From contig JAJEKV010000013.1 in assembly GCA_021234155.1 (NCBI GenBank), positions 20,790,521 through 20,854,520 of the forward strand: a stretch of DNA of 64,000 nucleotides, read 5' to 3'. A program made the translations under genes and the position numbers. Position 1 is the stretch's first letter, and every line of letters starts with the position of its first letter. The notes beneath the pieces were generated by a model. The model had not been told where the DNA came from, did no database searches, and worked only from the letters and a program-made list of their open reading frames with translations. Origin of the DNA: Isoetes taiwanensis. Its lineage: Eukaryota > Streptophyta > Lycopodiopsida > Isoetales > Isoetaceae. This document shows positions 47,304 to 60,324 of this stretch, piece after piece.

Positions 47304-50289
47304 ATGGAGAGAGTTGCGGTATCCGATTGCTTCAACCCGCAAGGTAAGATCCAACATCTTCTGATTTTTCTTCTTTATTTATACCAAAAGAAAATTTAGG
47401 CAGTGAAGATGCTAATTTGCAGCTGATTTGAAGGGGAAGAAAGCTGAAGAAGGAAAAAGTATTGGGTTTCAGAAGAAACCAAATATTGTACGTTCCATGG
47501 AAGAAAATCTGAAAGAAAAAACGAATAGAAGACAATTAAATGGGCGCCTTGCAAACCATGAGATTGAGACTTCTAGCAGGCTTTCTAGTCAAGTTGATCA
47601 TTCTGAAAGGGAAGAAGAACCGGGATCTCCCTCAGATTCTTGTGAAGACGAGGGATTTGTTGAAGGGCCTGATGAACCTTTCCTTGGAAAAACAGAACAC
47701 GCGTTATTTACATATGATCATGATGTCAATGAAGATAACTCATTCCATAGGCTTTCGGAAAATCTCCATAAATGGAATGTGCCATTGAAGGAAAATATAG
47801 AGGCTTCAGGGCTTTATGCTAGCTCAATAGAAGAAAAGAATCTGATAGGTGATGTCATCAAGGAGAAAAATTAAAACAAGCAATAGCAGCAACAATAAGG
47901 GAGATAGAATCTGGTTCTGGTGGGGATGTAGTAAAGGAAGAAATGATGATGCATGACCACATTTCTAATGTCAACCAAAAAAATTCCTTACAGCAATTTG
48001 CAGATATTAAGGCAATGGATAGCAAGCAAAATGAGCGTGCTATGCCATCAAAAGGGTCTTCATCCGTCAGTAGAATGGGGCCATCTTTACCAGAAGAGCC
48101 ACCTGTTTGTGAAAGTGATATGTCATCTTCGGGATCACTTCATAAAGAGTGCCCAAGCATTCTGTCTGCAAAATCTCAATCTGATGTTACTCTCACAGAT
48201 AACAGCGGTTATAAGATCAGTGAGGAACTGCAACAAATCAGAATCAAATTTCTGCGACTTGTGAACAGGTTAGGGTTCTCTGATCATAATGTCTTAGTGG
48301 CTCAGGTGCTCTATAGAATTGGTTTGGCAGAGCAGCTTAAAGGAGGGAACACATTTAATAGAAATAATGCTTTTAATTACGATTATGCCACTGCTATTGC
48401 AAATGAATTAGAAGCAACTGCACAACGTGAGCTCAACTTCACATGTACAATCTTACTACTTGGCAAGAGCGGTGTGGGAAAGAGTGCTACCATAAACTCA
48501 ATTTTGGGTGAAGGCAAGACACAGACTAATGCCTTCTCTTATGATACAAAGCATGTGAAAGAAATCACCGGCACTGTTCATGGTGTCAAGTTGAAGATCA
48601 TTGATACACCAGGACTCTTGCCATCTGCTTCAGATCGGCAACGAAATGAGAAGATGCTGCTATCTGTGAAACGGTTTATGAAGCGCTCACCTCCAGATAT
48701 TGTTCTTTATTTTGATAGGCTTGACATGCATACCAATGACCAGGGGATTTACCATTGCTTCGCTCGATAAGTGCTGTATTTGGGCTTCCCATTTGGTTTA
48801 ATGCTATAGTGGTCTTGACCCATGCCTCCTCAGCTCCACCTGATGGTCCTAATGGTGTATCTCTCAGTTATGAACTGTTTGTGCTAGATCGTTTCAGTGT
48901 TGTACAACAGATGATCCGCCAAGCTGCTGGAGATATGAGGTTGATCAACCCAACATCTCTAGTCGAGAATCACCCAGCTTGTAGAACAGATAGAAGTGGT
49001 TTGCAGGTGTTTCCCAATGGGCAAGTTTGGAAACCTCAATTTTATTGCTTTGCTTTGCCTCCAAGGTTCTGGCAGAGGCCAATTCTTTGTTGAAGTTTCC
49101 CAAGGATGTCTCTGCCATCATTCCATGTAGTGGACATGCCAAGGTACCGCCTCTACCTTACCTGCTTTCTTCACTGTTGCAATCACGCTTGCACTTAGAG
49201 GAACATGCTACTGAATCAGATGAAGTTGGAAATGCCTCCGATGATGAACTAGAATATGATGACCTCCCCCCTTTCAGAAGACTAACACAGGAGGAAATTG
49301 ATTGCTTAGGTAAACGGAACAGAAAGTTATACCTTGAAGAACTGGAATTGAGGGAAAAATTGTTCCTAAAAAAACAATGGAAGGAGGAAACGAGGAGGAG
49401 AAAGGAGTTGCTTCAGAAAATGGCCTTTGCACAAGAAGATGATCTTCAATCAAATACAAATATTGATGATCAGAGACCTAATAACACTGCAATTGCAACG
49501 CCTTTGCCTGACAGGGTTTTGCCTCCAACTTTTGATTCAGGTAATCCTGTCCATAGGTACAGATATCTTGATTCAAGAACAACTCAGTGGATAGATATTG
49601 ACAAAACTCGTGGATGGGATCCTGACAGTGGATATGATGGTATTGACTTGGAAAGGACCTTCGAAATTGCAAGAAATATTCCTATTTCAATATCAGGGCA
49701 AGTAGTGAAGGATAAGGAAACGAATGTTACCATGGAATGCTCTACTTCACTGAAGCATGGAAAAGGCCAAGCAACATTTGCAGGCCTAGAGGTTCAGACT
49801 ATTGGCGAGGATATGATGTACAATTTACGGACAGAATCATGTTTCAGCAACTTCAAACAAAGTAAAGTCTTGGCTGGCTTTGCACTTACTGTCCTTGGGG
49901 GAATGGTTGTTGCTGGCTTGAAGGTGGAAAGCAGAGTACTCACTTGGAGAAGGCTGAAACTGGTTATGAACGGGGGAGCACTTACTGGAAGAGGTGATAT
50001 AACATATGGAGGTACAGTAGAAGCCACCATAATCGACAAGGAGTTCGAACCACATGTCTCAACTCTAGGTTTGTCAATTATGTCCTGGCATGGGGATTTA
50101 GCTGTTGGTGGAAATATTCTGTCACAATTTGTACTTGGAAAGACAATGATGATTGCACGAGCAAGTATGAACAATAGATCTGCTGGACAATTGAGCATTA
50201 AAGCTAGCAGCTCTGAACAGATTCAGATGGCTCTCATTGCGATTGTTCCTACAGTTTGGGCACTCTTATCAAAACATTTCTTTTCTTAA
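47304..50289 (+). CDS. TOC159-family chloroplast import receptor GTPase (TOC132/120-like)
   Basis: This protein sits in the outer chloroplast membrane and, with Toc75 and Toc34, recognises transit peptides of incoming preproteins and hydrolyses GTP. Exon 1 is 47304-47343 (ATG in GCGCCATGG; MERVAVSDCF), followed by a 79-base GT-AG intron (47344-47422) and one long exon. An acidic N-terminal domain (about residues 1-330) is short for the family. The GTPase domain follows with a P-loop (LGKSGVGKSATIN, about residue 363), DTPGL, YFDRLDM and VLTHASSAPPDGPNG in the G4 region. The C-terminal membrane domain contains RYRYLDS, WDPDSGYDGI, LSGRGDI-like TGRGDITYGGTVEA and MSWHGDLAVGGN. The expected total is about 969 residues if three one-base losses are allowed. 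These lie in homopolymers: A5 at 47866-47870, G4 at 48743-48746, T4 at 49040-49043. Otherwise the frame is well kept, so sequencing error is likelier than decay. Confidence 0.93.
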
Positions 50290-55155: not shown

Positions 55156-56076
55156 ATAGAATAGAATAGAATTATTGTCCCTTGTGCCCTAAGGCCCCTG
55201 GACTGATGTAGCATGGGCTAAAGGACGCCACTAGCATATCACGCTGATATATTGTAGCCTTTTCTGACGTTTCTATTAGTACCGGCACCCCGCTTTTAAT
55301 CGGCATCATGGTCGTGCGGTGGTGCGTCGTTATCAATCAGCTTTTAGCTGAGCGTTTCGTGGGCGTCTATGTCTCGCCTCTTGGGCGATTCATATTATAA
55401 GACCTCTTTCTTTGTGTGCCCCTCAATGCTTGGTCGTCATCTCCTGGATTGCATCTGCCAGATCTTTCATTGTGTCTGCCCTTATCATCAGGGTGTGTAC
55501 TGGCTGTCCCTATCTTATATCTCTGTACTTGTTTCTGATGTCTCCGTACATTGGGCACTTGTTGAGCAGGTGGTTCTCATCCTCTACTTTTCGGTCATCT
55601 GCATTCTACATATCCGGTTGTCCTTTTCTATTTTCCTCCATCCGTCCTTTTCAATTCTTAGATCGTGGCTCCCTATCCTAAATCTCACCGGGACGTCTCT
55701 CCTGGCCTTCCCATGATTGTCTCGGTACATCTGTTGCCCTATCTGTTGTTCTCGGATTGAAGACCTGTCATGAGCCAAAGTGTCTTGGGTCCGGTGTGGT
55801 TTTGCAACCATGCTCGTGTAGCCTTGTCTGCCCAGTTTTCATTCCATTTCCCCTCGTTTACTAGATCACTCAGGTTCATCCCCATTTCTCTGGTCCATAT
55901 CGCTACATCCTAAACCATACACTGCCTATGATGATGTGTGATTTTGCTGAGTCGCTGATTGTAATACTTGACAGCTTCCCTGGGTGACCCCCTGCATTGT
56001 CTTTTATTAGGTATCTGATAGTCCTTTCCCATGCTCTCACCTCCATTGGTTTCTGACCTGTCTCGTATATCATGAC
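55156..56076 (-). mobile_element. LINE 3' part, split by an LTR element
   Basis: The minus strand carries a LINE C-terminus: VRFRIGSHDLRIEKDGW, then NRICRM and, after a one-base frameshift, VEDENHLLNKCPMYGDIRNK (about 55540-55600). This is the same CCHC-type block as at 50.9 kb, in a different family. The tail at the left is a pentanucleotide repeat (plus strand ATAGAATAGAATAGAATTA at 55154-55172). At 56076 the frame is interrupted by an LTR element and resumes at 59348. Confidence 0.8.
56072..56076. repeat. 5-bp target duplication, left
   Basis: ATGAC immediately before the TG of LTR 1; repeated at 59343-59347 immediately after the CA of LTR 3. Confidence 0.88.
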
Positions 56077-56511
56077 TGTTGAACCTGGTTCCCCCCAAAG
56101 GCCAACACCTATATAAATTCAATTGAACACCATAGCCAAGAAATCAAAAACTTGCACTAAAATTTCATCTTCAATTAACAGAAATCAGATACATATCATT
56201 TCCTTGCAAGGGACCTTCAATTCAAATATGGAGGGGGCTGCCACACCCCTCCTTGAGCACTGCCACCATGCTCCAATGAAGAACCGTGAAGGAAGAGGAG
56301 GAGAGAGTATCTCCTCAAATTATTTATGCTTTACACTATAAATCTCCACCATTATTTTCCACCTCTTCATCACAACCATCAATTTTGCCTCTTCATCTTA
56401 ATCATCCACTTCCACCACTTAATCCAAGCCCTTAAAACCTAACCATTATTATATGCCCCAAATATGCTCAAATGGTCTACAAAAACATGTTGAACCACTT
56501 GTGGTTCAACA
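56077..56511 (-). repeat. LTR 1 (435 bp)
   Basis: It begins TGTTGAACCTGG and ends GTGGTTCAACA on the plus strand, an inverted TGTTGAAC...GTTCAACA terminus. A 72-codon open frame (56123-56341) recurs unchanged in LTR 2 only because the LTRs are copies. It differs from LTR 2 mainly at a CCAGCCAGG word. Confidence 0.92.
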
Positions 56512-57878
56512 TTATGCCCCAAAAAGAAGCAGGCCGGCCCCCTCGGCCCAACACATAATATAGCACTTAAGATACATTATGAAGTACATAGAAATGAGTC
56601 GGGCACATCCACACCCAAGACTTGGCTACTTTGGCTCGGACCACGTGTGGATAACCATACTCAACAAGTCCAAGCAAGGTACTCCCAACGTCTAGACCGC
56701 TCTTCGTGGCTCACGGTCCACGCGGAAGTAACACTCCTTGGCAAAATAATAATGTAATAAAGTTCTATAAAATAGCATCATTAGTGCATGTCACACGTTG
56801 GCAAAACCTTAGGGTGTCCCAACAAGAACCATGGGGTGCCCCAACAAAACCATGGGGAATATCCGCAATAGCAAACAAAGGGTCGGGCAATGGCCGGTGT
56901 TAGACAAAACCGTGGGGTGCCCCAAAGACTTATCCGCAATAAAAACACGGGTCTGGGCAATGATCAAAAAGGTCAGGCAATGGTCGAAGGAAGGAAAAAT
57001 TGATTTTTAGGGTTAGGTTACGATGGCCCTGCTGCAAACCCGGCAAAGCCGAGGATAGAAGGCGGTGATGCAGGCAAAGATTGAATCGTGGCAGGGATGA
57101 GGCGTTGAAGCAAAAGGCATGGTTAGGTTTTAAGGATCGACAGCTGAGGCAAGCTTTTCTTAGATTTCGGCAAGGGGACAAGCAGAATCGGCAGAATTTA
57201 TGGAAGTGGCGCAAGGTCTGGCAAGATTTTTACAGAAAATAAAGAGCAGAGCAGATAAGATTTGATGGATCTTGCAGATGCAGTAGGAGACTTGCTTGTA
57301 CCAATCGCTGGGCAAAGCGCACAAGAATCACGAAAGAGGATGCAAAGAAAAACGCATGGTCGGCAAGGCTTGGGCCAGATTTTAGATATTCAAAGGTTAG
57401 ACATAGCAGTAAGGCGGGATTTGGCGATGGCACATGCTCTGTAGCCAAATGACAGAAAAAAGCAGCGAAAAGAAGGCAGAATCAAGCAAGACAATGTCTT
57501 GACAAAGAATTTTGCAGGACTAGATAAGAATCAATTCTGCACTGCTCACATATGTGCAGACATCTTCACTATTTTTCCCCGCTTAATAAACAGGTAAAGC
57601 CGATTTGTTTTTGCAGTTGCTATTGGGACGAAATCCCTCTTAAAAAAAATCTTCAAACAGGTAAAAGCTCCATCCTCAAGCTTTGAAATTATATGCATTA
57701 TCTGCTGCTATTAGAATGAAGTGCCTCTGAAAGAAATTTCTTCAGATAGAGCTCCATCCACAGGCTTTGAAAATCATCTATTTGTCCGCGACAAGCGCTT
57801 CAACCATCCAAAGATCCGGGCTTCAATAAATTGGCAACCAAGCTTCTAATGGGGAAGAAAAACCTGATCAAAAGACCA

Positions 57879-57894
57879 GTCCCACCCGAGTGCC
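57879..57894 (+). other. Short tRNA-Arg 3'-end fragment (original-length primer-binding site)
   Basis: GTCCCACCCGAGTGCC matches, with small differences, the last bases of the tRNA-Arg(UCU) that follows. It is about the length of an ordinary primer-binding site. It abuts the full tRNA copy at 57895. Confidence 0.55.
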
Positions 57895-57970
57895 CGACTC
57901 GTGGCCTAATGGATAAGGCATTTGACTTCTAATCAAAGGATTGTGGGTTCGTGTCCCACCAGGAGTGCCA
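57895..57970 (+). tRNA. tRNA-Arg(UCU)-derived sequence with encoded CCA, before LTR 2
   Basis: The cloverleaf is complete apart from disturbed acceptor bases: D arm GCCT...AGGC, anticodon stem TTTGA/TCAAA around loop CTTCTAA (anticodon TCT), T arm GTGGG-TTCGTGT-CCCAC, end GTGCCA. A-box (TGGCCTAATGG) and B-box (GGTTCGTGTCC) are present, so transcription by Pol III is conceivable. CCA is encoded, which plant nuclear tRNA genes do not do; it is added after transcription. It is followed by TAA and then the TG of LTR 2. This is therefore better read as a reverse-transcribed primer tRNA than as a normal tRNA gene. Confidence 0.8.
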
Positions 57971-57973
57971 TAA

Positions 57974-58408
57974 TGTTGAACCTGGTTCCCCAGCCAGGCC
58001 AACACCTATATAAATTCAATTGAACACCATAGCCAAGAAATCAAAAACTTGCACTAAAATTTCATCTTCAATTAACAGAAATCAGATACATATCATTTCC
58101 TTGCAAGGGACCTTCAATTCAAATATGGAGGGGGCTGCCACACCCCTCCTTGAGCACTGCCACCATGCTCCAATGAAGAACCGTGAAGGAAGAGGAGGAG
58201 AGAGTATCTCCTCAAATTATTTATGCTTTACACTATAAATCTCCACCATTATTTTCCACCTCTTCATCACAACCATCAATTTTGCCTCTTCATCTTAATC
58301 ATCCACTTCCACCACTTAATCCAAGCCCTTAAAACCTAACCATTATTATATGCCCCAAATATGCTCAAATGGTCTACAAAAACATGTTGAACCACTTGTG
58401 GTTCAACA
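57974..58408 (-). repeat. LTR 2 (435 bp)
   Basis: Same ends and length as LTR 1. It lies between internal 1 and internal 2 and is shared by the two units of the composite element. Confidence 0.92.
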
Positions 58409-58709
58409 TTATGCCCCAAAAAGAAGCAGGCCGGTCCCCTCGGCCCAACACATAATATAGCACTTAAGATACATTATGAAGTACATAGAAATGAGCTGGG
58501 CACATCCATTACGCCAAGACCGGCTACTTTGGCTACGGACCACGGTGGATAACCATACTCAACAAGTCCAAGCAAAGGTACTCCCAACGTCCCAGCTGCC
58601 ACTGTGGCTCACGGTCCACTGGAAGTAACACTCCTTGGCAAAATAATAATGTAATAAAGTTCTATAGCATCATTAGTGCATGTCACACGTTGGCAAAACC
58701 TTAGGGTGT

Positions 58710-58775
58710 TGGTGCATTGGCCGGAAACGAACCCGGTTCTGCATGTGGCAGGTACTATTCTACCACTAGTCCCGC
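58710..58775 (-). tRNA. Antisense tRNA-Gly(GCC)-derived sequence with encoded CCA
   Basis: Read on the minus strand: CTAGTGGTAGAATAGTACC (D arm and following), CTGCCAC (anticodon loop, GCC), CCGGGTTCG (T arm) and CCAATGCACCA (acceptor end with discriminator A and CCA). These are hallmarks of plant tRNA-Gly(GCC). The first bases (GCGGGA) are degraded and one or two stem bases are missing. It is absent from internal 1. It starts exactly where internal 2 departs from internal 1 (after TTAGGGTGT), which suggests template switching onto a mature tRNA. Confidence 0.72.
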
Positions 58776-58779
58776 AAAA

Positions 58780-58830
58780 TTTTGACTTCTAATCAAAGGA
58801 TTGTGGGTTCGGGTCCCACCGAGAGTGCCA
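58780..58830 (+). tRNA. Partial tRNA-Arg(UCU) (3' two thirds) with CCA
   Basis: Starts in the anticodon stem (TTTGACTTCTAATCAAAGG) and runs to CCCACCGAGAGTGCCA. This copy keeps the expected acceptor strand CGAGAGT, discriminator G and CCA. The 5' third is missing. It is joined head-to-tail to the full copy at 58831. Confidence 0.8.
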
Positions 58831-58905
58831 GCTCTCGTGGCCTAATGGATAAGGCATTTGACTTCTAATCAAAGGATTGTGGGTTCGTGTCCCACCAGAG
58901 TGCCA
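58831..58905 (+). tRNA. Full tRNA-Arg(UCU)-derived sequence with encoded CCA, before LTR 3
   Basis: 75 bases: acceptor GCTCTCG, D arm GCCT/AGGC, anticodon TCT, T arm GTGGG/CCCAC and CAGAGTG plus CCA. One G is missing from the 3' acceptor strand relative to the neighbouring partial copy. It is followed by TAA and LTR 3. This layout equals a tRNA primer with first-strand cDNA attached to its 3' end. Confidence 0.85.
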
Positions 58906-58908
58906 TAA

Positions 58909-59342
58909 TGTTGAACCTGGTTCCCCAGCCAGGCCAACACCTATATAAATTCAATTGAACACCATAGCCAAGAAATCAAAAACTTGCACTAAAATTTCAT
59001 CTTCAATTAATAGAAATCAGATACATATCATTTCCTTGCAAGGGACCTTCAATTCAAATATGGAGGGGCTGCCACACCCCTCCTGAGCACCGCCACCATG
59101 CTCCAATGAAGAACCCGTGAAGGAAGAGGAGGAGAGAGTATCTCCTCAAATTATTTATGCTTTACACTATAAATCTCCACCATTATTTTCCACCTCTTCA
59201 TCACAACCATCAATTTTGCCTCTTCATCTTAATCATCCACTTCCACCACTTAATCCAAGCCCTTAACACCTAACCATTATTATATGCCCCAAATATGCTC
59301 AAATGGTCTACAAAAACATGTTGAACCACTTGTGGTTCAACA
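58909..59342 (-). repeat. LTR 3 (434 bp)
   Basis: Nearly identical to LTRs 1 and 2. On the minus strand this is the 5' LTR, with the tRNA-Arg primer-binding region directly downstream of it. Confidence 0.92.
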
Positions 59343-59347
59343 ATGAC
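59343..59347. repeat. 5-bp target duplication, right
   Basis: ATGAC after LTR 3, matching 56072-56076. Removing the element and one ATGAC rejoins the LINE reading frame (TVMIYETG on the minus strand). Confidence 0.88.
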
Positions 59348-59754: not shown

Positions 59755-60324
59755 TTCCAGCATGTAATGAAGAAGAGGCAGATGGGGAGAGCGAGGCTAT
59801 GGCTCAGAAACTCTTCAATGGCAGATTCAGGTATAGCTGGCAAGGCTTGCCAGGGGATGTAATCATGAGAAACCAGCTGGGGCCTGCCACATGCTCTTAT
59901 CTCGCGTCTCGGTAATCTTGCCAGAGAGTGAGTGTTTGACTACTTCTCCTGTGGGTCGTTTGGCCGGACTGCATTGATACATAAGAGATTTTGTATTGTG
60001 TTTGAAAGTGACCCGGCTAAGCGGCAGTGCCTACATGTCATTCTTAGTAGGCTTGACCGCCTCCTGAATCCTATCATCGCTGCAGTTCCTGTGACAGAGA
60101 AACAAGGTGTTGTTGTTGAAGAAGCTGTAGATCCATCAAGTCATGTGATACCTGAAGAGGAACCCCATGTTGACTATGATATGATCAAGAATACTGAATT
60201 CAATCGGGACATTCTAAATGATCCCGATTTCATTGCCACAGGGTTCGAGACCTTTCAAGGAGATCCTATGGGCGCTTCATCCAACCATGGCACTGGCGCT
60301 GGGGAACCTGATCTTGCTGAATAG
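59755..60324 (+). CDS. Unrecognised coding-like region
   Basis: Two open stretches. The first (about 59755-59911) reads ACNEEEADGESEAMAQKLF and WQGLPGDVIMRNQLGPA and ends at a possible donor (CG|GTAATC). The second (59932-60324) is a 130-codon frame rich in acidic residues and proline, with DPAKRQCLHVILSRLDRLL and DPDFIATGFETFQGDP, ending in a stop codon. I do not recognise a family. It could be the last exons of a host gene or the 3' part of a transposon gene. The splice connection is not certain because a stop lies just before the second frame. Confidence 0.35.

Follow-up and report, generated by a model that had tools for sequence, protein, structure and literature searches.

The usual view of LTR elements, to our knowledge, is that no more than the last bases of the primer tRNA stay behind, because methylated A58 stops the copying. 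Position 58 of the T loop is a nearly invariant A, and its methylation (m1A58) normally stops plus-strand synthesis. The primer over-extension sequence of lentiviruses and spumaviruses is short. In HIV-1, m1A58 is the usual stop and loss of the methylase lets synthesis pass it; on unmodified tRNA synthesis runs through to the 5' end (PMC13191261). A study of HIV-1 with an A58U primer judged modification of nucleotide 58 not to be essential, and reports that extra tRNA sequence was sought in proviruses and none was found; the same paper cites work in which m1A58 acted as a partial stop only (PMC1785368). For Arabidopsis nuclear tRNAs, a misincorporation signature at m1A58 is described as ubiquitous, along with truncations just 3' of modified bases (PMC11658184). 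Primers of the tRNA-Arg type account for 10% of surveyed plant elements, and CCA is absent from nuclear tRNA genes (PMC6317226). Plants commonly carry tandem arrays of small non-coding elements, with 129 subfamilies counted across 35 of 43 genomes (PMC4717578). Titles and abstract beginnings of the open-licence literature, as far as our partial coverage of it extends, yielded no LTR element with a whole-tRNA primer-binding site or a position-58 scar. The window described here (the whole 64-kb stretch of DNA that was analysed) appears to preserve a reverse-transcription error that is usually assumed not to be inherited.

Results

The minus strand of the window carries, from 59342 to 56077, an LTR element with three LTRs and two internal regions inside one 5-bp target-site duplication. 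Its terminal repeats are direct and have TG...CA ends, which together with the target-site duplication marks it as an LTR retrotransposon. Its features, in plus-strand coordinates, are the following.

56072-56076, no strand: left target-site duplication ATGAC (same letters as 59343-59347)
56077-56511, minus: LTR1 (3' LTR on the element strand), 435 bp; against LTR2, 431 matches and 4 mismatches
56512-57877, minus: internal region 1, non-coding by frame and Pfam searches
57878-57894, minus: old ordinary primer-binding site, complement of the tRNA-Arg 3' end; about 18 nt, 1 gap, 1 mismatch
57896-57970, minus (tRNA reads on plus): whole tRNA-Arg(UCU) complement with CCA, at LTR2; Rfam
57971-57973, minus: TTA spacer from LTR2 to the primer-binding region, read from the sequence
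57974-58408, minus: LTR2 (middle LTR, shared), 435 bp, from LTR alignments
58409-58709, minus: internal region 2; up to 58709/56817 it is related to the part of internal region 1 next to the LTR
58710-58772, minus: tRNA-Gly(GCC) with CCA, spanning about positions 9-76, in the sense direction of the element strand; alignment
58781-58830, minus: second tRNA-Arg piece, positions 27-76 with CCA, 50 nt; alignment to the LTR3 whole copy
58831-58905, minus (tRNA reads on plus): whole tRNA-Arg(UCU) complement with CCA, at LTR3; Rfam and ARAGORN
58906-58908, minus: TTA spacer from LTR3 to the primer-binding region, read from the sequence
58909-59342, minus: LTR3 (5' LTR on the element strand), 434 bp; against LTR2, 430 matches, 3 mismatches and 3 gaps
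59343-59347, no strand: right target-site duplication ATGAC (same letters as 56072-56076)

Between any two of the LTRs, 4 to 10 columns differ. The closest pair is LTR1-LTR2 (4 mismatches, 0 gaps) and not the outer pair, LTR1-LTR3 (426 matches, 7 mismatches, 3 gaps); the three gaps of LTR3 against the other LTRs are one-base indels in or beside short single-base runs. The longest stop-to-stop frame of the whole element, in six frames, has 99 codons, and no Pfam family was matched by 56512-57870 in the three minus-strand frames. At the LTR1 end of internal region 1 there is a weak polypurine-like tract, CTTTTTGGGGCATAA in minus-strand reading, seen by eye only. As one unit, from LTR3 to LTR2, measures 1369 bp and so exceeds the 1000-bp TRIM limit quoted in PMC10886601, we call the element TRIM-like and not a TRIM. 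The host of the tRNA sequences looks like a small non-autonomous, non-coding TRIM-like element in the tandem L3I2 form, and otherwise ordinary.

Several other features were recorded in passing. The U3 end of every LTR (56488-56511 in LTR1) forms a near-perfect palindrome on the element strand, TGTTGAACCACAAGTGGTTCAACA, that repeats the LTR tips; internal region 1 contains short degenerate repeats at 56818-57877 (for example AACCATGGGGTGCCCCAA) and a 17-nt inverted match to the LTRs at 57119-57135. The window as a whole is plant nuclear-type DNA with 39% GC. It holds a gene of the TOC159/TOC132 family (chloroplast import) at 47853-50289 on the plus strand, with AIG1-type GTPase and membrane anchor domains in two open frames, and three aligned blocks, 87-91% identical, that together make up a direct duplication of roughly 16 kb (6749-17292/23644-34190; 4412-6834/20163-22600; 4-1955/18190-20170).

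An earlier note on this DNA had reported that tRNA-Arg(UCU) sequences ending in CCA run into TAA and the LTR edge at both LTR2 and LTR3. Both copies match the full Rfam tRNA model (1-71/71) on the plus strand, at 58831-58902 with 52.8 bits and at 57897-57967 with 51.8 bits (gathering 29), and these are the only Rfam matches at gathering threshold in the whole 64 kb. ARAGORN calls a tRNA-Arg(tct) at 58830-58904, that is, the LTR3 copy alone. After each whole copy come CCA (ending at 58905 and 57970), TAA and the LTR edge TGTTGAACC, exactly as had been described. The primer-binding site stands just after the 5' LTR, as LTR-TTA-TGGCACT(C)..., in both units; since the complement of the tRNA-Arg 3' end comes after LTR3 or LTR2 and TTA, the element is oriented on the minus strand. 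The reading of the locus as a minus-strand element whose primer-binding site has grown to the whole primer is borne out by the whole-tRNA complement that follows LTR-TTA in both units. The "full cloverleaf" of that note is a generous description: the LTR3 copy (58831-58905) lacks one acceptor base, the LTR2 copy (57896-57970) is damaged in its 5' acceptor strand, and the minimum-free-energy folds of both copies were neither cloverleaves nor unusually stable (z -0.75 and -1.64).

Beside each whole copy lies a shorter tRNA-Arg 3' fragment, head-to-tail, of 50 nt at LTR3 and about 18 nt at LTR2, in agreement with the first description. At LTR3 the 50-nt piece abuts G1 of the whole copy, A76-to-G1, with zero bases between; an Rfam match that overlaps this piece (58754-58827, 22.8 bits) stays under gathering. 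At LTR2 the score of the old site (57878-57894) was reached by 0 of 5000 shuffles, its CCA reads CCC, and a match past 18 nt was not convincing (shuffle test, P 0.046). The ordinary 18-nt neighbour at LTR2 and the exact CCA-to-G1 join at LTR3 support the proposal that a new whole-tRNA copy was placed beside an old primer-binding site. Searched for with up to 3 mismatches, the pattern TGGCACTCNCGGTGGGA has three hits where 0.11 would be expected in the window: the 50-nt piece matches perfectly, the LTR2 whole copy with 1 mismatch, and an unrelated site at 60288 with 3. The LTR3 whole copy and the 18-nt site, both of which have indels, are missed. Two further Rfam families gave matches that were taken as tRNA-like resemblance: YrlA scored 33.7 bits at 58779-58878 (E 9e-5, gathering 69), and Plastid-ycf2 matched both whole copies on the minus strand, with 25.2 and 23.6 bits where gathering is 65.7.

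The tRNA-Gly piece lies on the strand opposite to the Arg copies. With a generic plant tRNA-Gly sequence as query, its alignment score was 74, against a maximum of 24 in 2000 shuffles, and the three best positions in the window all overlap 58710-58772 (next best, 24). Rfam did not detect the piece at 58710-58772, probably because it has a damaged anticodon stem and no 5' acceptor strand. The two internal regions cease to match at its CCA end: an identical 46-nt block common to both regions ends at 58709 and 56817. In internal region 1 a short repeat runs on unbroken across that point (AACCTTAGGGTGTCCCAA, AACCATGGGGTGCCCCAA, AACCGTGGGGTGCCCCAA), so internal region 2 looks like the derived one. 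Judged from this arrangement, the tRNA-Gly piece is best read as the probable trace of minus-strand synthesis that switched template to the CCA end of a mature tRNA and lost about 1 kb. Scans of viral contigs gave 0 matches for the LTR-primer-site junction and 0 for a eukaryote-type tRNA-Gly.

The Arg copies too could have been captured as templates, by end-to-end template switching onto the CCA ends of packaged free tRNAs, and would then not derive from the attached primer. We consider this unlikely. The presence, in the tRNA-Gly piece, of a tRNA other than that of the LTR edge does suggest that CCA-end capture of a mature tRNA happened at this locus; yet in each unit the whole Arg copy adjoins the LTR-TTA edge exactly and is oriented as a primer, a placement that such a jump would not require, and on the element strand the Arg copies are opposite in orientation to the Gly piece.

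Next to these arrangements stands the base at position 58. The T loop of the whole copies reads TTCGTGT, with T at position 58 (57952 at LTR2 and 58888 at LTR3), and that of the 50-nt piece reads TTCGGGT, with G at 58812. In the tRNA-Gly piece it reads TTCGTTT, explained either by A to T at 58727 with a C lost nearby or by loss of the A; the best alignments, with the generic plant sequence as reference, have A58 deleted, not substituted. All four pieces that extend beyond position 58 have something other than A there; they count as three if the whole copies represent one event. The Rfam consensus has A at this position, and all three aligned Arg pieces mismatch it. Over 50 columns, the LTR3 whole copy and the 50-nt piece differ by 1 gap (in the acceptor stem) and 1 substitution, and this sole substitution in 49 gap-free columns is position 58; it is no longer the sole difference once the indels and the LTR2 copy, whose acceptor stem differs further, are counted. 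In the 18-nt site the match ends at position 58, at base 57878, which is canonical (the complement of A), as expected if copying stopped there, or by chance. The chance of all three hitting position 58 is about 7e-5, given equal rates at all positions, independence and, as an assumption, A58 in the host genes, tRNA-Arg(UCU) included; for this figure the whole copies were counted once, with one substitution per Arg unit and, by our own count, 11 of 66 positions altered in Gly. The changes are A to T and A to G, not the C-to-T type expected of cytosine deamination. On this sequence pattern, the altered position 58 adds evidence that the template may have been a modified tRNA and not a gene. A scan of viral contigs for tRNA-Arg(UCU) gave one match, contig L001, whose tRNA-Arg(tct) carries A26 and A58. 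We had considered A26 in the copies as a second scar, with the 50-nt piece ending at a methylated G26, and dropped it: the A26 of L001 makes a natural A26 plausible, and so no A26 scar is claimed.

Position 58 also bears on two other explanations. Host tRNA genes or a tRNA-derived SINE inserted at the primer-binding site would account for tRNAs that Rfam and ARAGORN recognise, and are nevertheless very improbable as the source: four of the five tRNA pieces carry CCA and the other one CCC, the position is exactly that of the primer, and no tail is visible by eye. Position 58 falls within the internal B-box promoter of tRNA genes, and a base other than A there should weaken the promoter of a gene. 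An assembly or sequencing artefact is more improbable still, bordering on negligible. The three one-base indels of LTR3, near or in single-base runs, do resemble long-read errors; against this, the target-site duplication is intact, the two units are consistent, the junction is exact, and errors are not expected at position 58 in separate tRNAs.

The locus may record one event or two. The whole copies have T58 and a 64-nt identical stretch in common, and largely also an odd acceptor 3' strand, which reads C-AGAGTG and CAGGAGTG in these copies versus CGAGAGTG in the 50-nt piece, and does not fully pair with their own 5' strand; the incomplete pairing would reflect later mutation, sequencing error or copying error. 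With T58 and the acceptor 3' strand in common, the whole copies may be one event. They differ at their far ends (GCTCTCG versus GACTCG) and in the old sites behind them (50 versus 18 nt). Together this suggests either one capture followed by divergence or two captures homogenised by recombination, and not clearly two independent events. All inferences rest on one locus, and this does not support taking the structure as characteristic of a class of elements.

Discussion

The reading we prefer, with a probability of roughly 65%, is that reverse transcriptase passed m1A58 of the mature primer tRNA with misincorporation and went on as far as the 5' end, and that the product was then attached to the old primer-binding site. 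Ordinary priming by tRNA-Arg(UCU) from an 18-nt site would have come first, and the old site at 57878-57894 is what it would leave. Plus-strand strong-stop synthesis would then have passed m1A58, inserting a wrong base, and continued to the 5' end of the primer. The over-long plus-strand end may have been left untrimmed and joined end-to-end to the minus-strand 3' end beside the old site; the join itself is present in the sequence, and a template jump or blunt-end joining could have made it. LTR, spacer, whole tRNA copy and old primer site are in the arrangement expected from end-to-end joining of an over-long product, for which second strand transfer should be hindered. In one lineage, minus-strand synthesis would also have switched from the internal RNA to the CCA end of a mature tRNA-Gly, followed this tRNA to about position 9 and then continued at the primer-binding region, at the cost of about 1 kb, if the order of these steps is as we suppose. 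Recombination, template switching or unequal exchange could finally have produced the three-LTR form within one target-site duplication. On this reading the whole copies require that a modified base was bypassed, whereas full read-through is best documented for unmodified tRNA. The canonical base at position 58 of the 18-nt site and the further acceptor differences of the LTR2 copy also weigh slightly against it.

Two other readings give the extended site a function. If it is under selection, over-long plus strands would still pair with it in second strand transfer, and the m1A58 stop would be dispensable. The over-extension sequence that lentiviruses and spumaviruses have beside the primer-binding site has been interpreted as such an adaptation (PMC13191261), and the whole copies have the 64-nt identical stretch in common. 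A single locus does not show spread or conservation among copies, and the identity may equally stem from recent origin, given how little the LTR pairs differ, or from homogenisation; selection is an improbable explanation here. It is something of a long shot, too, that a heritable whole-tRNA primer-binding site frees the element from the m1A58 stop. In its boldest form this would be a self-sustaining primer cassette, in which the plus strand could supply an unmethylatable U58 tRNA-Arg that is able to prime and be copied whole, and in which every cycle of reverse transcription would rewrite the cassette from tRNA.

On the preferred reading, of read-through and joining at the old site, read-through products appear to be fossilised here, and the modified position in them has a non-canonical base. 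If this is true in other copies, genomes could be mined for scars that show how tRNAs were modified in the past; such scars would also tell how faithfully retrotransposon reverse transcriptases copy and which tRNAs entered the particles, and the need for the m1A58 stop could be tested in plants.

Among described systems, TRIM and TA-TRIM (L3I2) elements are likewise non-coding, with two or three LTRs and a primer-binding site after the LTR; the L3I2 arrangement and a 5-bp target-site duplication (as in plant Helenus) are also shared (PMC4717578, PMC10886601). The unit length sets our element apart from them, as noted above. A whole-tRNA site is absent from the TRIM passages compared, and neither "PBS" nor "tRNA" occurs in the main text of PMC4717578. 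Helenus, a TRIM, is also a small LTR element with tRNA-like sequence, which lies inside the LTR and is not complementary to the primer site (PMC10886601); in our element the tRNA matches are outside the LTRs, antisense and matching the primer. Template-switching complexes (Sabot and Schulman 2007, PMC1950507) have three LTRs, two internal regions and one target-site duplication, as here. Their external LTRs are highly similar, a criterion that we read as being the closest pair; here LTR1-LTR2 is closest and the outer LTRs are not, so a complex of this kind is not favoured, and unequal exchange within one insertion is possible. Ty3/gypsy non-chromoviruses with tRNA-Arg primers share the primer and the 5-bp duplication (PMC6317226) and differ from this element, which has no coding region. 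The lentiviral and spumaviral over-extension sequence has in common with our locus that the primer complement reaches past position 58 (PMC13191261); here it comprises the whole tRNA. Altogether, the comparison points to a variant of a known element type, with a whole-tRNA site and a position-58 signal, rather than to a new class.
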